Source: Erysipelotrichaceae bacterium NK3D112 (GTDB lineage: Bacteria; Bacillota_I; Bacilli_A; Erysipelotrichales; Erysipelotrichaceae). Taken from it: a stretch of DNA of 64,000 bases. The notes under the pieces were generated by a model that did no database searches, was not told the origin of the DNA, and saw nothing but the letters and a program-made list of their open reading frames with translations. The DNA lies in NCBI GenBank assembly GCA_000701725.1, contig JNJQ01000013.1, positions 1 to 64,000 on the forward strand, read 5' to 3'. Made by a program: the position numbers and the translations under genes. Shown here in pieces: positions 26,251-57,510 of this stretch; position 1 is the first letter of the stretch; every line of letters starts with the position of its first letter.

Positions 26251-26892
26251 ATGGGCATGTATGGAATTGATATTTCCGAACACAACGGCGAAATTGATCT
26301 TTCGCAGTATAAAGATCAGTTCGTGATCATCAGGGCCGGCTGGGGCTGGGCCATTGAACAGAAGGATAAAATGTTTGAGCGCAATGTGCGTGAGTGCATC
26401 CGGCTGAATATTCCCTTCGGCGTCTATTGGTATTCCTATGCAGTGGACATCGAAAGCGCAAGAGCGGAGGCGCAGGTCTTTCTGAGAGTGATTGCCCCGT
26501 ACAGGGATCAGATCAGACTTGGCGTATGGGTGGACCAGGAGGATGCGGATGGCTGGAAGGTCAAAAACGGTTTCCGCATCAATCGGGAATACATTACGGA
26601 AATCACAGCCCTGATGTGTTCCATGATCGAGGCGCAGGGCTATTATACCGGCATCTACTGCTCATACAGCTGGCTTGGGTATCTTGGTGAAAAGTGCGCG
26701 CCGTATGACCGCTGGGTGGCGCATTGGGGAACAGACAACGGTGAAAAGCAGAATGACATGTCTCAATACGGTTCCATCCATCAGTTCACCACGAAGCCGC
26801 TTGACCGTGATTACACGAACAGGGATCTGTCCGCTTTCAAAGCGAAGAAAGCGAAAACGGACATGAATCAGGGCGTGATTGACATTGCCTAA
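26251..26892 (+). CDS. GH25-family lysozyme-like hydrolase
   Basis: The 213-residue single-domain protein matches glycosyl hydrolase family 25 muramidases: the opening strand YGIDISEHNG carries the first catalytic aspartate, and a WVDQEDAD block the acidic pair after strand four, with IYCSYSW following. It has neither signal peptide nor wall-binding domain, unlike typical secreted autolysins, so it may need a holin or lysis to reach its substrate, or may be a prophage relic. GAGGAT precedes the start at 26251. The stop overlaps the promoter of the next transcript. Confidence 0.82.
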   Translation: MGMYGIDISEHNGEIDLSQYKDQFVIIRAGWGWAIEQKDKMFERNVRECIRLNIPFGVYWYSYAVDIESARAEAQVFLRVIAPYRDQIRLGVWVDQEDADGWKVKNGFRINREYITEITALMCSMIEAQGYYTGIYCSYSWLGYLGEKCAPYDRWVAHWGTDNGEKQNDMSQYGSIHQFTTKPLDRDYTNRDLSAFKAKKAKTDMNQGVIDIA

Positions 26893-26921
26893 AGGCATAC
26901 CGTCATGTTATATTTATCAAG

Positions 26922-27080
26922 AATGGGGGAGTAGCGGACGTATCTGTAAAGACGTGGAGAGGTCGTCATCACGGCATAGACCCGGCCCTTCTTAATCCGC
27001 GAGACTCATGCAGCCATTTTTCAGCTGTGTGGGTATGAATCATCAACTCAGCAAGCAGCTGGAAACTGCTTGCTTTTTTC
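26922..27080 (+). ncRNA. yybP-ykoY (Mn2+) riboswitch with terminator
   Basis: The leader carries the family core: GGGGGAGTAGC at the 5' side, GTCGTCATCACGG in the middle, a CCGGCC element and GCGAGACTCAT at the 3' side. ATG/CAT flanks pair as P1, giving an aptamer at about 26922-27011. The expression platform is a perfect terminator stem AGCAAGCAG (27050-27058) / CTGCTTGCT (27066-27074) with T6; an upstream CAGCTG could pair with the stem as antiterminator. A promoter (TTGCCT-18-TATATT) lies at 26885-26914. The gene controlled is the Na/phosphate symporter at 27096, not a classical Mn exporter. Confidence 0.85.
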
Positions 27081-27095
27081 CATAAGGGGGAATTT

Positions 27096-28763
27096 ATGAC
27101 ATTAGCTTCATTGGACTGGGGGATGATTCTTGGCGGTTTCGGACTCTTCATGTTCGGAATCAAATTCATGGGAGACGGCCTTAAGGCAGTTGCCGGAGAC
27201 AGGCTCAAGGATCTGATCAACAAGTACACATCCAACCGTCTTTCCGCACTTCTGATCGGTATTGTTCTTACCATCATCATGCAGTCTTCCAGTGCCACCA
27301 GCGCCATTTCCATCGGCCTTGTCCGTGCAGGCCTGATGACGCTTGAACAGGCGGCAGGTATTATACTCGGTGCGACGATCGGTACAACCGTCACATCATT
27401 CCTGATTTCCATCAGTATTGAAAAATACGCGATGTTCATCATCTTCGCGGGCTGTGCGCTGATCTGCTTCTCCAGCCGCACAAAGCTCAAGCAGAGCGGA
27501 AACGTATTGCTTGGCTTCGGACTGATCTTCTTCGGTATGGCGGCGATGGGCGATGCCCTTGCTGCTCTCAAGGAGCTTCCGCAGTTTGAGGCAATCGCTC
27601 TGAAAATGAGTGAACAGCCGTTGCTGGCACTGCTTGCCGGTATTCTTCTGACTGCCGCTGTACAGTCTTCCGCTGCCACCATCGGTGTCATCCAGAAACT
27701 GTATATGGCTGGTGCGGTCAGCTTCTCCGCTTCGCTTCCGTTCATGTTCGGCGCCAACATCGGCACAACCATGACCGGTATTCTGGCAGCGATCGGCGGC
27801 TCCACCGAAGGCAAGCGCACCGCGGCACTGCATACAACCCTGAACGTGATCTCCACGATTTTCGGAATGCTGCTGCTTAAACCGTATGCAGCCTTCATCC
27901 AGTCGGTCTTCGGAAATCTCAATCCGATGATGCAGATCGCGATGGCCAACATCGTCTTCAAGACAGTCACAACCCTGCTGTTTGTTCCGTTTGTCAATCA
28001 GCTGGTTGCCTTCGTCAAGAAGATCATCCCCGGCGAGGAAAAAGAATCCTACGACTACGGCTTCGATCAGCTTGAAGCGGATGTCGGTGCCGTCCTTCCT
28101 TCCGCTGCGGTTGATGTGGCAAAACAGTTCATTCTCAAGATGGTCGATATCGTCCGTTACAATACATCTGAGGCGCTCACCTATATGAAGAACAAGGGCG
28201 GGGATGAACTCAGACAGAAGATTGACGAACGTGAGGCTCTGATCAACCAGTTCGACCTCAAGGTCACTGAATATCTGATCAAGCTTTCCCAGAAACCCAA
28301 CCTGACAATCAATGACACAAACAACATCCGTTCCTATCTTGACGCCCTGAAGAACTTCGAAAGAGTGGGCGACCTGACCCAGAACCTGATTGAATTCTTC
28401 GAAATGGCATATGAGAAGAAGGAAGACTTCACCGAAGATGCCAGAGCTGAAATGGAAGCGATGTTTGAAAAGCTGATCGAGATGTTCGATGTCGCGGCGG
28501 AAGTCTTCGTTACCAACGACGAGGCAACATACGAGAATCTCAGAAGACTTGAACATGATCTGGATACAATGGAACTGGATGCCAGACGCCATCACTTCAG
28601 AAGAATGCGCGACGGCTCCTGCAACGGTCAGGTCACATCAAGCGTCTACTGCGATATCATCGGTACTCTGGAAAGAATGGGCGACCATTGCTGCAACGTC
28701 GGCAAGGCGACTGTCACAGGCTTTACCAGCGACCTCTCCGATGACGAGATTATTCCGGCTTAA
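27096..28763 (+). CDS. Na/Pi cotransporter with C-terminal PhoU domain
   Basis: This 555-residue protein joins two tandem Na/Pi-cotransporter II repeats (residues about 1-310; the QSSSATSA and QSSAATIG motifs are the duplicated QSS signatures) with a cytoplasmic PhoU-like helical domain (about 345-555). The NptA/YjbB family moves phosphate with sodium, in some bacteria outward. AAGGGGG precedes the ATG. Control by a yybP-ykoY riboswitch suggests expression rises with manganese, linking phosphate or metal-phosphate flux to Mn homeostasis; that link is inferred from position only. Confidence 0.92.
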   Translation: MTLASLDWGMILGGFGLFMFGIKFMGDGLKAVAGDRLKDLINKYTSNRLSALLIGIVLTIIMQSSSATSAISIGLVRAGLMTLEQAAGIILGATIGTTVTSFLISISIEKYAMFIIFAGCALICFSSRTKLKQSGNVLLGFGLIFFGMAAMGDALAALKELPQFEAIALKMSEQPLLALLAGILLTAAVQSSAATIGVIQKLYMAGAVSFSASLPFMFGANIGTTMTGILAAIGGSTEGKRTAALHTTLNVISTIFGMLLLKPYAAFIQSVFGNLNPMMQIAMANIVFKTVTTLLFVPFVNQLVAFVKKIIPGEEKESYDYGFDQLEADVGAVLPSAAVDVAKQFILKMVDIVRYNTSEALTYMKNKGGDELRQKIDEREALINQFDLKVTEYLIKLSQKPNLTINDTNNIRSYLDALKNFERVGDLTQNLIEFFEMAYEKKEDFTEDARAEMEAMFEKLIEMFDVAAEVFVTNDEATYENLRRLEHDLDTMELDARRHHFRRMRDGSCNGQVTSSVYCDIIGTLERMGDHCCNVGKATVTGFTSDLSDDEIIPA

Positions 28764-28899: not shown

Positions 28900-30400
28900 C
28901 ATATATGTGTACTTCAAGTTTTGCCGGAATGAAACTTGCAGTAGTTTTGGGGCCAGGGTGTGACTGCTTCGCATCCTGGTTTTGTTGTCAACGCGCAGAT
29001 GATTTCACTCCTTTATGAGCCAGGTTCATCCGGACCTCATCGTAAATCCTACGTTATGTGATCGGATATCCGGAATTGCTTACGGCGGTTCACCACCAGC
29101 CCTGAAGCGCGGAAGAACATAGGAGTCGACAAATACCATGTAATGACCGCAAGTACACAGAAGCGGGTCTACACCGAAAGTGTCGATCAAAGGCAGCCGG
29201 TAATGTTTCGGCCGGTTAAGATCAGGTTTATATGAATTCTGTTTCAGAAGTCTGAGTTTTACCGCTTTCTTCAGTTTATGATCACAGGTGGCATAAATGC
29301 CATAATAGCGAACCATCTTGAATTGAGGAGGTGGAATATGACGGAGCAGCTTCCATATGAAGTTGAAAATGCTTTCCTCAACTTCGATACGTTCTTCGGT
29401 TTTATGATCCTGATAGAAATATCTGATGGTTTTGCAGTTCTTGTTATAGGAGATGATCCTACTCTGAGCCATCGCGGGCTTACCGGCATAACGAATCATG
29501 TATTTGACAACATGATCCTTTCCTGAAGCCTTCATATCTCTTGGAGGGGCGTGCACATAGAAACCATTCGTATCATCCTGATATAAGACATTGATAAGTC
29601 TTTTAAAGCTCTTCAGCTTTTTGGAATTGTCAGACAGGGCATCACGCATTTTGTCGAGAAGCTGCTTCATTAAAGACTTGCGGAGAGAAGCGTAGTTTAT
29701 GTACTCCAAAGCCGTGTAAACACTATCCTGGTTCATCCCGCCTTCAGTGCACAAAACGTGGACATGCGGATTCCATTTAAGATCACGGCCGTATGTATGA
29801 AGCGTAATGATAAAGCCGGGTGTGATTGTTGATTTCTTTTTCCGCTTGCGGCGTTTCTTTTTTGCGCAGCTGGTTTGAAGAACTTTTGGATTTGTCAAAT
29901 GTATAGAATATAGCTTCCCTTGCGGCTTCAAAAAGAAAATGAAGCCATTCGGGATGAATCCAGAAGAACTCACGCAAACGTTCATCAATAGTGAAAACCA
30001 TATGGCGATGATTGACATCAAGAGTTGACCTGGCGATAAAGAAAGCTTTGGCCCGGGTGGCTTTGGAACCGCAGGAAGGGCAGAATCTGCTTTTGCAGGT
30101 ATAACAAATGATGTGGTGACGATGACAGTTTGGACACTCATATATTTCAAAACCCATATCAAGTGTTCCGCATGCCATCATGCGTTTAATCTCATCTATT
30201 TTGAATTGAGGTAATTTAACATTCTTCTTTTTGCAGGCCGCAAGAAAAGCTTCCCAATGATTATGAAAGATCAACTGGAAAGTTGGCTTATTGGGATCAT
30301 AATGATGTTCAAATGCTTTCGCGGCCGTTTTAACTATCGGTCTAGCCCAATCGTCGTGGATCATGATTGCGGCTTTCTTATCTACAGTATAGACGACCGC
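28900..30400 (-). mobile_element. IS91-like insertion sequence, approximate limits
   Basis: The element is defined by a Y2 (HUH) transposase split by a frameshift. It is inserted between the terminators of two unrelated genes. IS91 elements lack classical inverted repeats and make no target duplication, so the ends are estimated. The gene-free 28813-29079 stretch holds two hairpins, CAAGTTT/AAACTTG (28915-28938) and a CCAGG/CCTGG stem (28953-28979), which may be the rolling-circle terminus; otherwise nothing coding is seen there. Confidence 0.6.
29080..30364 (-). pseudogene. IS91-family transposase, frameshifted
   Basis: The N-terminal part (30364 to about 29860) carries a zinc-binding domain (CPNC, CKSRFCPSCG) and the HUH-side stretch NHRHMVFTI. 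The C-terminal part, in another frame, carries LHTYGRDLKWNPHVHVL and the catalytic Y2 region (KYMIRYAGKP). The break is at a run of six A before G (plus-strand T6 at 29858-29863). Removing one A restores one reading frame of about 428 codons. It is either an inactivating insertion or a slippage site producing full-length enzyme at low level. The ATG at 30364 has no ribosome site. Confidence 0.82.
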
Positions 30401-56982: not shown

Positions 56983-56990
56983 AGGAACAG

Positions 56991-57147
56991 ATGAGGGAGT
57001 AGCGGCTGTTGCATAACAGTCTGCGGACCGTCAAGACGGGGAACAATCCTCCGGTCTGCAAATCTTCCGCAAGACTCATGTGTGGTTTCTGCCATGCGTG
57101 GGATGATATGTCAAAATTCCGGATGCGCAGAAAACGCATCCGTTTTT
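56991..57147 (+). ncRNA. Second yybP-ykoY (Mn2+) riboswitch with terminator
   Basis: The leader has the family core ATGAGGGAGTAGCGGC, CCGTCAAGACGG, CCGGTC and GCAAGACTCAT, with ATGAG/CTCAT closing P1 (aptamer about 56991-57080). The expression platform is the stem CGGATGCG (57120-57127) / CGCATCCG (57135-57142) with T5. The downstream AGGAGGT and start lie after the terminator, so the switch acts on transcription. The target is a DUF6054-like gene, not a known Mn transporter. Confidence 0.83.
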
Positions 57148-57165: not shown

Positions 57166-57510
57166 ATGGCAAAGATGGAAACAATCGTACTGGCTGATTT
57201 CGATGAACTCGTATATGTGGTTGAAAACTGCATTCTGGACGGCAGCGCCACCGCCTCGCTTGAGGATGGCAGCGACTATGCCTATGACCACGCCAGATGC
57301 GCGGTGCGCGTGTTTGAACGCTTCAGTATGGCCGGCAATAACCGTGTGTCAATGAATGTCACATTCTTTGAGGGCGAGCCGGGAAGGGTTCATGTCTCAG
57401 CCATCACATCCGGCGGTTCGCAGGCGATGTTCTTCAAAGTGAACACCTGGGGAGAGGAGACCTTCCTGGACAAATTGCGCGATGTTCTCGACCGCTTCAG
57501 GACAATGTAA
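57166..57510 (+). CDS. DUF6054-like small protein
   Basis: The 114-residue cytoplasmic protein has a conserved look (GSATASLEDGSDY, CAVRVFERFSM, SAITSGGSQAMFFKVNTWGE) that I associate with DUF6054; its function is unknown. It carries no obvious metal-binding motif. The combination of a Mn riboswitch and a TetR-type operator suggests a role in metal or envelope stress. Confidence 0.75.
   Translation: MAKMETIVLADFDELVYVVENCILDGSATASLEDGSDYAYDHARCAVRVFERFSMAGNNRVSMNVTFFEGEPGRVHVSAITSGGSQAMFFKVNTWGEETFLDKLRDVLDRFRTM

Follow-up and report, generated by a model that had tools for sequence, protein, structure and literature searches.

The yoaB riboswitch of L. lactis, a yybP-ykoY RNA, controls a P-type ATPase and folds around a four-way junction. 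In crystal structures of the class, N7 of a discriminator adenosine in loop L3 makes a Mn-specific contact with Mn2+, and mutating this adenosine abolishes the Mn-induced docked state (PMC6754395). The mgtA Mn/Ca riboswitch of S. pneumoniae has a three-way junction aptamer and controls a Mn2+/Ca2+ ATPase (PMC9495176). Among phosphate transporters, NptA of S. aureus and YjbB of E. coli carry Na_Pi_cotrans domains and a C-terminal PhoU domain, and nptA is under PhoPR control (PMC13170248). In the literature searched, no Mn riboswitch was found on S. aureus nptA or E. coli yjbB.

In the window, the whole stretch of 64,000 nucleotides analysed here, a Na/Pi symporter gene of the NptA/YjbB type directly follows a yybP-ykoY leader. 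The leader shares with yoaB the L1 core GGGAGUA/AGAC, a related L3 type containing the discriminator A, the switch helix P1.1 and, as judged here from folding, a transcriptional ON logic. It differs from yoaB in its target, which is a Na/Pi symporter and not a P-type ATPase, in its three-way junction, which resembles that of mgtA, and in a separate anti-P1 hairpin between aptamer and terminator.

Architecture of the leader RNA

The leader, at 26920-27095, and the gene behind it comprise the following parts, all on the + strand (R1 and R2 are covariance models described below).

26885..26914, +: candidate sigma-70-type promoter, TTGCCT-18-TATATT with TG before the second hexamer (consensus scan; weak)
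26923..27009, +: yybP-ykoY (Mn2+) riboswitch aptamer, three-way junction (R1, R2 and covariation; helices from sequence)
26923-26927 (AUGGG) / 27005-27009 (CUCAU), +: P1.1 of the aptamer
26928-26933 (GGAGUA) / 27001-27004 (GAGA), +: L1 of the aptamer
26934-26937 (GCGG) / 26997-27000 (CCGC), +: P1.2 of the aptamer
26938-26941 / 26952-26955, +: P2 hairpin of the aptamer
from 26956, +: P3.1 of the aptamer
26963-26971, +: L3 of the aptamer, UCGUCAUC, with the discriminator A at 26968
27004..27034, +: anti-P1 hairpin, 27004-27014 with 27024-27034, excluding P1.1 (MFE structure)
27017..27065, +: antiterminator, 27017-27032 with 27050-27065, its 5' strand common with the anti-P1 hairpin (duplex)
27050..27079, +: intrinsic terminator, 9-bp stem 27050-27074 and U-run (sequence and folding)
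27096..28763, +: Na/Pi symporter with C-terminal PhoU domain, NptA/YjbB superfamily, 555 aa (Pfam, NCBIfam)

The original prediction had set a conserved core and a terminator directly before the gene, and these positions were borne out, with the aptamer at 26923-27009, the terminator at 27050-27074 followed by its U-run, and the ATG at 27096. The asymmetric loop L1, GGGAGUA / RAGAC, lies between P1.1 and P1.2 (26927-26937, 26997-27009), and A26968 in L3 is the equivalent of the Mn2+-contacting A41 of L. lactis and A48 of X. oryzae (alignment A2). The promoter scan gave one match where 0.4 were expected; if this weak candidate is used, the transcript would start at the 5' end of the aptamer.

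Assignment to the yybP-ykoY class

The original prediction had made its assignment depend on an RF00080 covariance score above threshold, and, taken literally, this failed: the window leader was unmatched at the gathering threshold, and neither a 301-base search at E<=10 nor a search of the genome gave a match. RF00080 also fails on leaders directly 5' of mntP in relatives (L070, L071), and it matched 9 of 198 genomes of the class, none of them over its cut-off. Because the model misses the mntP leaders of relatives as well, this test is uninformative here and we rejected RF00080 as the decider; its threshold marks a limit of the database, which lacks power here, and not a property of the RNA itself.

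A covariance model, R1, was constructed from 11 leaders outside Erysipelotrichaceae, whose downstream genes encode MntP, CaCA antiporters, P-type ATPases and an ArsB-like transporter. Ten of these leaders were sub-threshold RF00080 matches, while the eleventh, the mntP leader L070, came from DNA similarity to the window, so the independence of the model is nearly, not fully, complete. On the 64-kb window R1 returned exactly two sites, 26916-27016 (32.3 bits, E=1e-4) and 56984-57086 (29.7 bits, E=3.6e-4), the E-values being rough owing to a short calibration. A 25-sequence model, R2, scored the symporter leader at 66.3 bits and the second element at 61.6 bits, and was positive in 110 of 395 genomes of the class.

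In an alignment of 24 distinct aptamers, which was fitted to the model and is biased towards it, 90.8% of cells were paired compared with 30-50% in slid controls, double changes numbered 142 against at most 34, and 18 of 22 pairs varied on both sides. GGGAGUA and AGAC were kept in 224/224 distinct aptamers, as was the L3 discriminator A, recognised by pattern in all but five and by eye in those five. A search with a strict DNA motif found nothing, the distance between the motifs in the window probably being shorter than the pattern allowed. The single-sequence fold z-score of the leader was -0.92, that is, its global fold energy is not unusual; since the leader encodes competing structures, this value is uninformative. 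The leader is thus well supported as a yybP-ykoY riboswitch, and the proposal that such an RNA controls the symporter stood up through R1, the covariation, the metal-contact residues, the computed ON switch and the repeated pairing, though not through RF00080.

Predicted switch between terminator and antiterminator

The free fold of the leader consists of the anti-P1 hairpin and the terminator, at -51.4 kcal/mol. When P1.1 and P1.2 were enforced, the terminator was lost and 27017-27032 paired with 27050-27065, at -47.0 kcal/mol; ligand binding would have to supply the gap of 4.4 kcal/mol between the two folds. The antiterminator duplex, with the terminator loop included, reached -16.1 kcal/mol, and 2 of 200 shuffles were as good, while a first test that left out the loop was non-significant for the window leader. 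In the 100 leaders whose terminator could be recognised, the 3' strand of P1.1 paired downstream significantly in 90 (at most 10/200 shuffles as good), a significant antiterminator was present in 78, and both pairings fell on one common strand in 69; about a third of the tested leaders did not have both alternative pairings at significance. By folding, P1.1 is coupled to the terminator as a switch helix, and the same ON logic has been described for the L. lactis switch (PMC11087558).

At low Mn2+, the 3' strand of P1.1 (CUCAU...) would pair downstream into the anti-P1 hairpin, leaving the terminator stem free, and transcription would end at about 27079. Mn2+ bound between L1 and L3 would close P1.1 and release the strand 27017-27032, which would then sequester the 5' arm of the terminator by base pairing, so that RNA polymerase could continue into the symporter gene. 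The symporter may then adjust cytoplasmic phosphate within a broad Mn-stress regulon. Aptamer membership, the mutually exclusive structures and the recurrence of the pairing were established by computation, and an ON direction in vivo is what the folds predict. We put the probability that the leader is a Mn2+-responsive transcriptional ON switch of the symporter gene at about 0.8, a figure from which the direction of transport is excluded.

Recurrence of the riboswitch before symporter genes

The riboswitch was present in 61 of 70 genomes of the genus; most genomes compared here are metagenome-assembled. In a first set, 22 of 145 distinct sites preceded a Na/Pi symporter, spread over no fewer than 21 of the 70 genus genomes, and 21 of these symporters were 60-100% identical to that of the window, the other being a 28%-identical paralog. 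When named symporter loci were inspected, 19 of 80 had the riboswitch directly upstream, all 19 clustering with the window's gene in one clade of 35 rows, 20 of them positive. The element was absent from 15 of the 35 orthologs in this clade, two of which have too little or no upstream sequence, and is therefore not indispensable for the symporter. Six state changes are needed on the symporter tree, and the distribution is consistent with one gain and several losses within the clade. At locus L241, 5' of a symporter gene, GGGGGAAUAAC, GUCAGCAC and a terminator remain while the aptamer has lost its 3' half; by eye, this leader appears to be a decayed or truncated riboswitch remnant.

In another genus of the family, the riboswitch precedes a 34%-identical symporter paralog in all three genomes checked. 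The other upstream regions that were sampled, from further genomes and from the pst-neighbouring paralog of the source genome, were negative for the riboswitch. As such, symporters seem to have recruited the riboswitch at least twice and probably three times, which is hard to square with chance.

The L3 subtype tracks the target gene: mntP leaders almost all carry UCAACA (alignments A2, A3, A4, A7), which occurs in 0 of 23 symporter leaders, mostly UCGUCA or CCGUCA. This split could reflect ancestry, affinity tuning or altered specificity.

Other genes downstream of the same RNA

The second R1 site in the window, missed by the original prediction, has the following parts.

56984..57086, +: second yybP-ykoY aptamer (R1, R2)
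57120..57147, +: terminator hairpin and U-run of the second element (sequence)
57166..57510, +: DUF6054 protein, 114 aa, presumed target of the second element (Pfam PF19524, 1.6e-38)

An aptamer of the class is also paired with a DUF6054 gene in another genome (L108). The mntP gene of the window (43186) is without the riboswitch, as had been noted.

In a sample of 224 sites, picked by score and not a census, the downstream genes encoded MntP (42), CaCA antiporters (40), P-type ATPases (40), Na/Pi symporters (23), SPFH proteins (20), a protein of ~560 aa (14), ABC ATPases (14) and CitMHS/ArsB-like transporters (12), with DUF975, CNNM/CorC, DUF6054 and singletons being rarer. No fewer than six copies occur in the source genome alone; the genes behind them encode the symporter, a CaCA antiporter, an ABC ATPase, the ~560-aa protein, a CitMHS-type transporter and a DUF6054 protein. 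Considering that RF00080 misses a large branch of the riboswitch class, and most of its members in these bacteria, the Mn regulon as known so far is probably an underestimate.

The SPFH proteins were flotillin FloT-like and HflK-like (L088, L091, L095, L125, L148 and others), and no report of this riboswitch in front of SPFH genes was found in the literature searched. The ~560-aa protein (L062:3475-5160 and 13 homologs) has apparent membrane segments, lies repeatedly 3' of the riboswitch and had no match in Pfam or NCBIfam.

The symporter and its genomic setting

The 555-residue product matched Na_Pi_cotrans (PF02690, 6.8e-59, in two stretches) and PhoU (PF01895, 8.5e-23) in Pfam, and NF037997 in NCBIfam with 217 bits against a cut-off of 50. 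In alignment A5, QSSS at 63-66 is invariant, as are Q190 and S192 of the QSS at 190-192. The two Na_Pi_cotrans repeats, which carry QSS motifs, and the PhoU domain at the C-terminus place the protein in the NptA/YjbB superfamily, with an identity to E. coli YjbB of only 23%. A literature search on Mn binding by PhoU gave nothing usable. Downstream of the symporter gene, at 29080-30364 on the minus strand, two overlapping ORFs resemble pieces of one zinc-finger-type transposase and are possibly a broken insertion sequence.

Alternative explanations

The lack of an RF00080 match is what a decayed or unrelated leader with a chance likeness to the motif would give, but the E-value of R1, the covariation, the conserved position before orthologous symporters, in which the pairing recurs, and the computed switch rule out this reading, to which we leave hardly any probability. 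A genuine yybP-ykoY fold whose specificity has moved to Ca2+, Mg2+, Co2+ or Cd2+ would explain the non-Mn targets. Such variants are expected by Breaker's group (PMC7266159), the three-way junction aptamer of S. pneumoniae mgtA reportedly binds Ca2+ more tightly than Mn2+ (PMC9495176), and symporter leaders have the L3 type GUCA where nearly all mntP leaders have AACA. However, the discriminator A and the entire L1 core are unchanged, and the L. lactis aptamer, whose L3 (UCA41AU43UC) is similar to the GUCA type, has been proven to sense Mn2+ (PMC6754395), so that we consider a shifted ion unlikely. Mn2+ as the ligand is supported because classical Mn targets dominate the downstream genes, and the conserved residues, together with the occurrence of this RNA beside mntP and P-type ATPase genes, argue strongly for it.

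With Mn2+ as the ligand, the direction of transport may still be inward: the symporter would import phosphate under Mn excess, and phosphate or polyphosphate would buffer or precipitate Mn. This is a sub-reading of the favoured explanation and differs from it in transport direction alone. S. aureus NptA, of similar architecture including the PhoU domain, imports Pi (PMC13170248), whereas E. coli YjbB, a proposed exporter, promotes phosphate export upon overexpression (PMC11389368). Against import stands that the source genome has a dedicated import system elsewhere, Pst; a few kb downstream of it lies a second gene of the NptA type, which lacks the riboswitch, and no PitA-type transporter was found in the genome. 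These findings argue mildly, without demonstrating export, that the main importer is a protein other than the Mn-controlled one. The original prediction had raised export of phosphate or Mn-phosphate as a possibility; we lean slightly, and speculatively, towards outward transport of phosphate, alone or with associated metal, and give import somewhat short of an even chance.

Implications for manganese and phosphate homeostasis

The RNA is of an already known kind, and Mn control of a phosphate symporter is unreported as far as the literature searched shows: our searches, which did not extend to the gene lists in Dambach 2015 and Price 2015, gave no Na/Pi symporter under a yybP-ykoY riboswitch. 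Manganese level probably turns the symporter gene on. With more confidence than doubt, we suggest that Mn2+ directly controls phosphate flux, in that a gut and rumen lineage of Erysipelotrichaceae repeatedly placed Na/Pi symporters under the Mn2+ riboswitch within a wide Mn-stress regulon of antiporters, flotillin/HflK-like proteins, ABC and CitMHS transporters and membrane proteins, and that Mn and phosphate homeostasis are coupled via a PhoU-domain transporter. A single RNA would thereby tie manganese sensing to phosphate transport, in an arrangement that seems to have arisen more than once, and with this pairing one can ask directly whether cells are protected from Mn by the efflux of phosphate or by its uptake.
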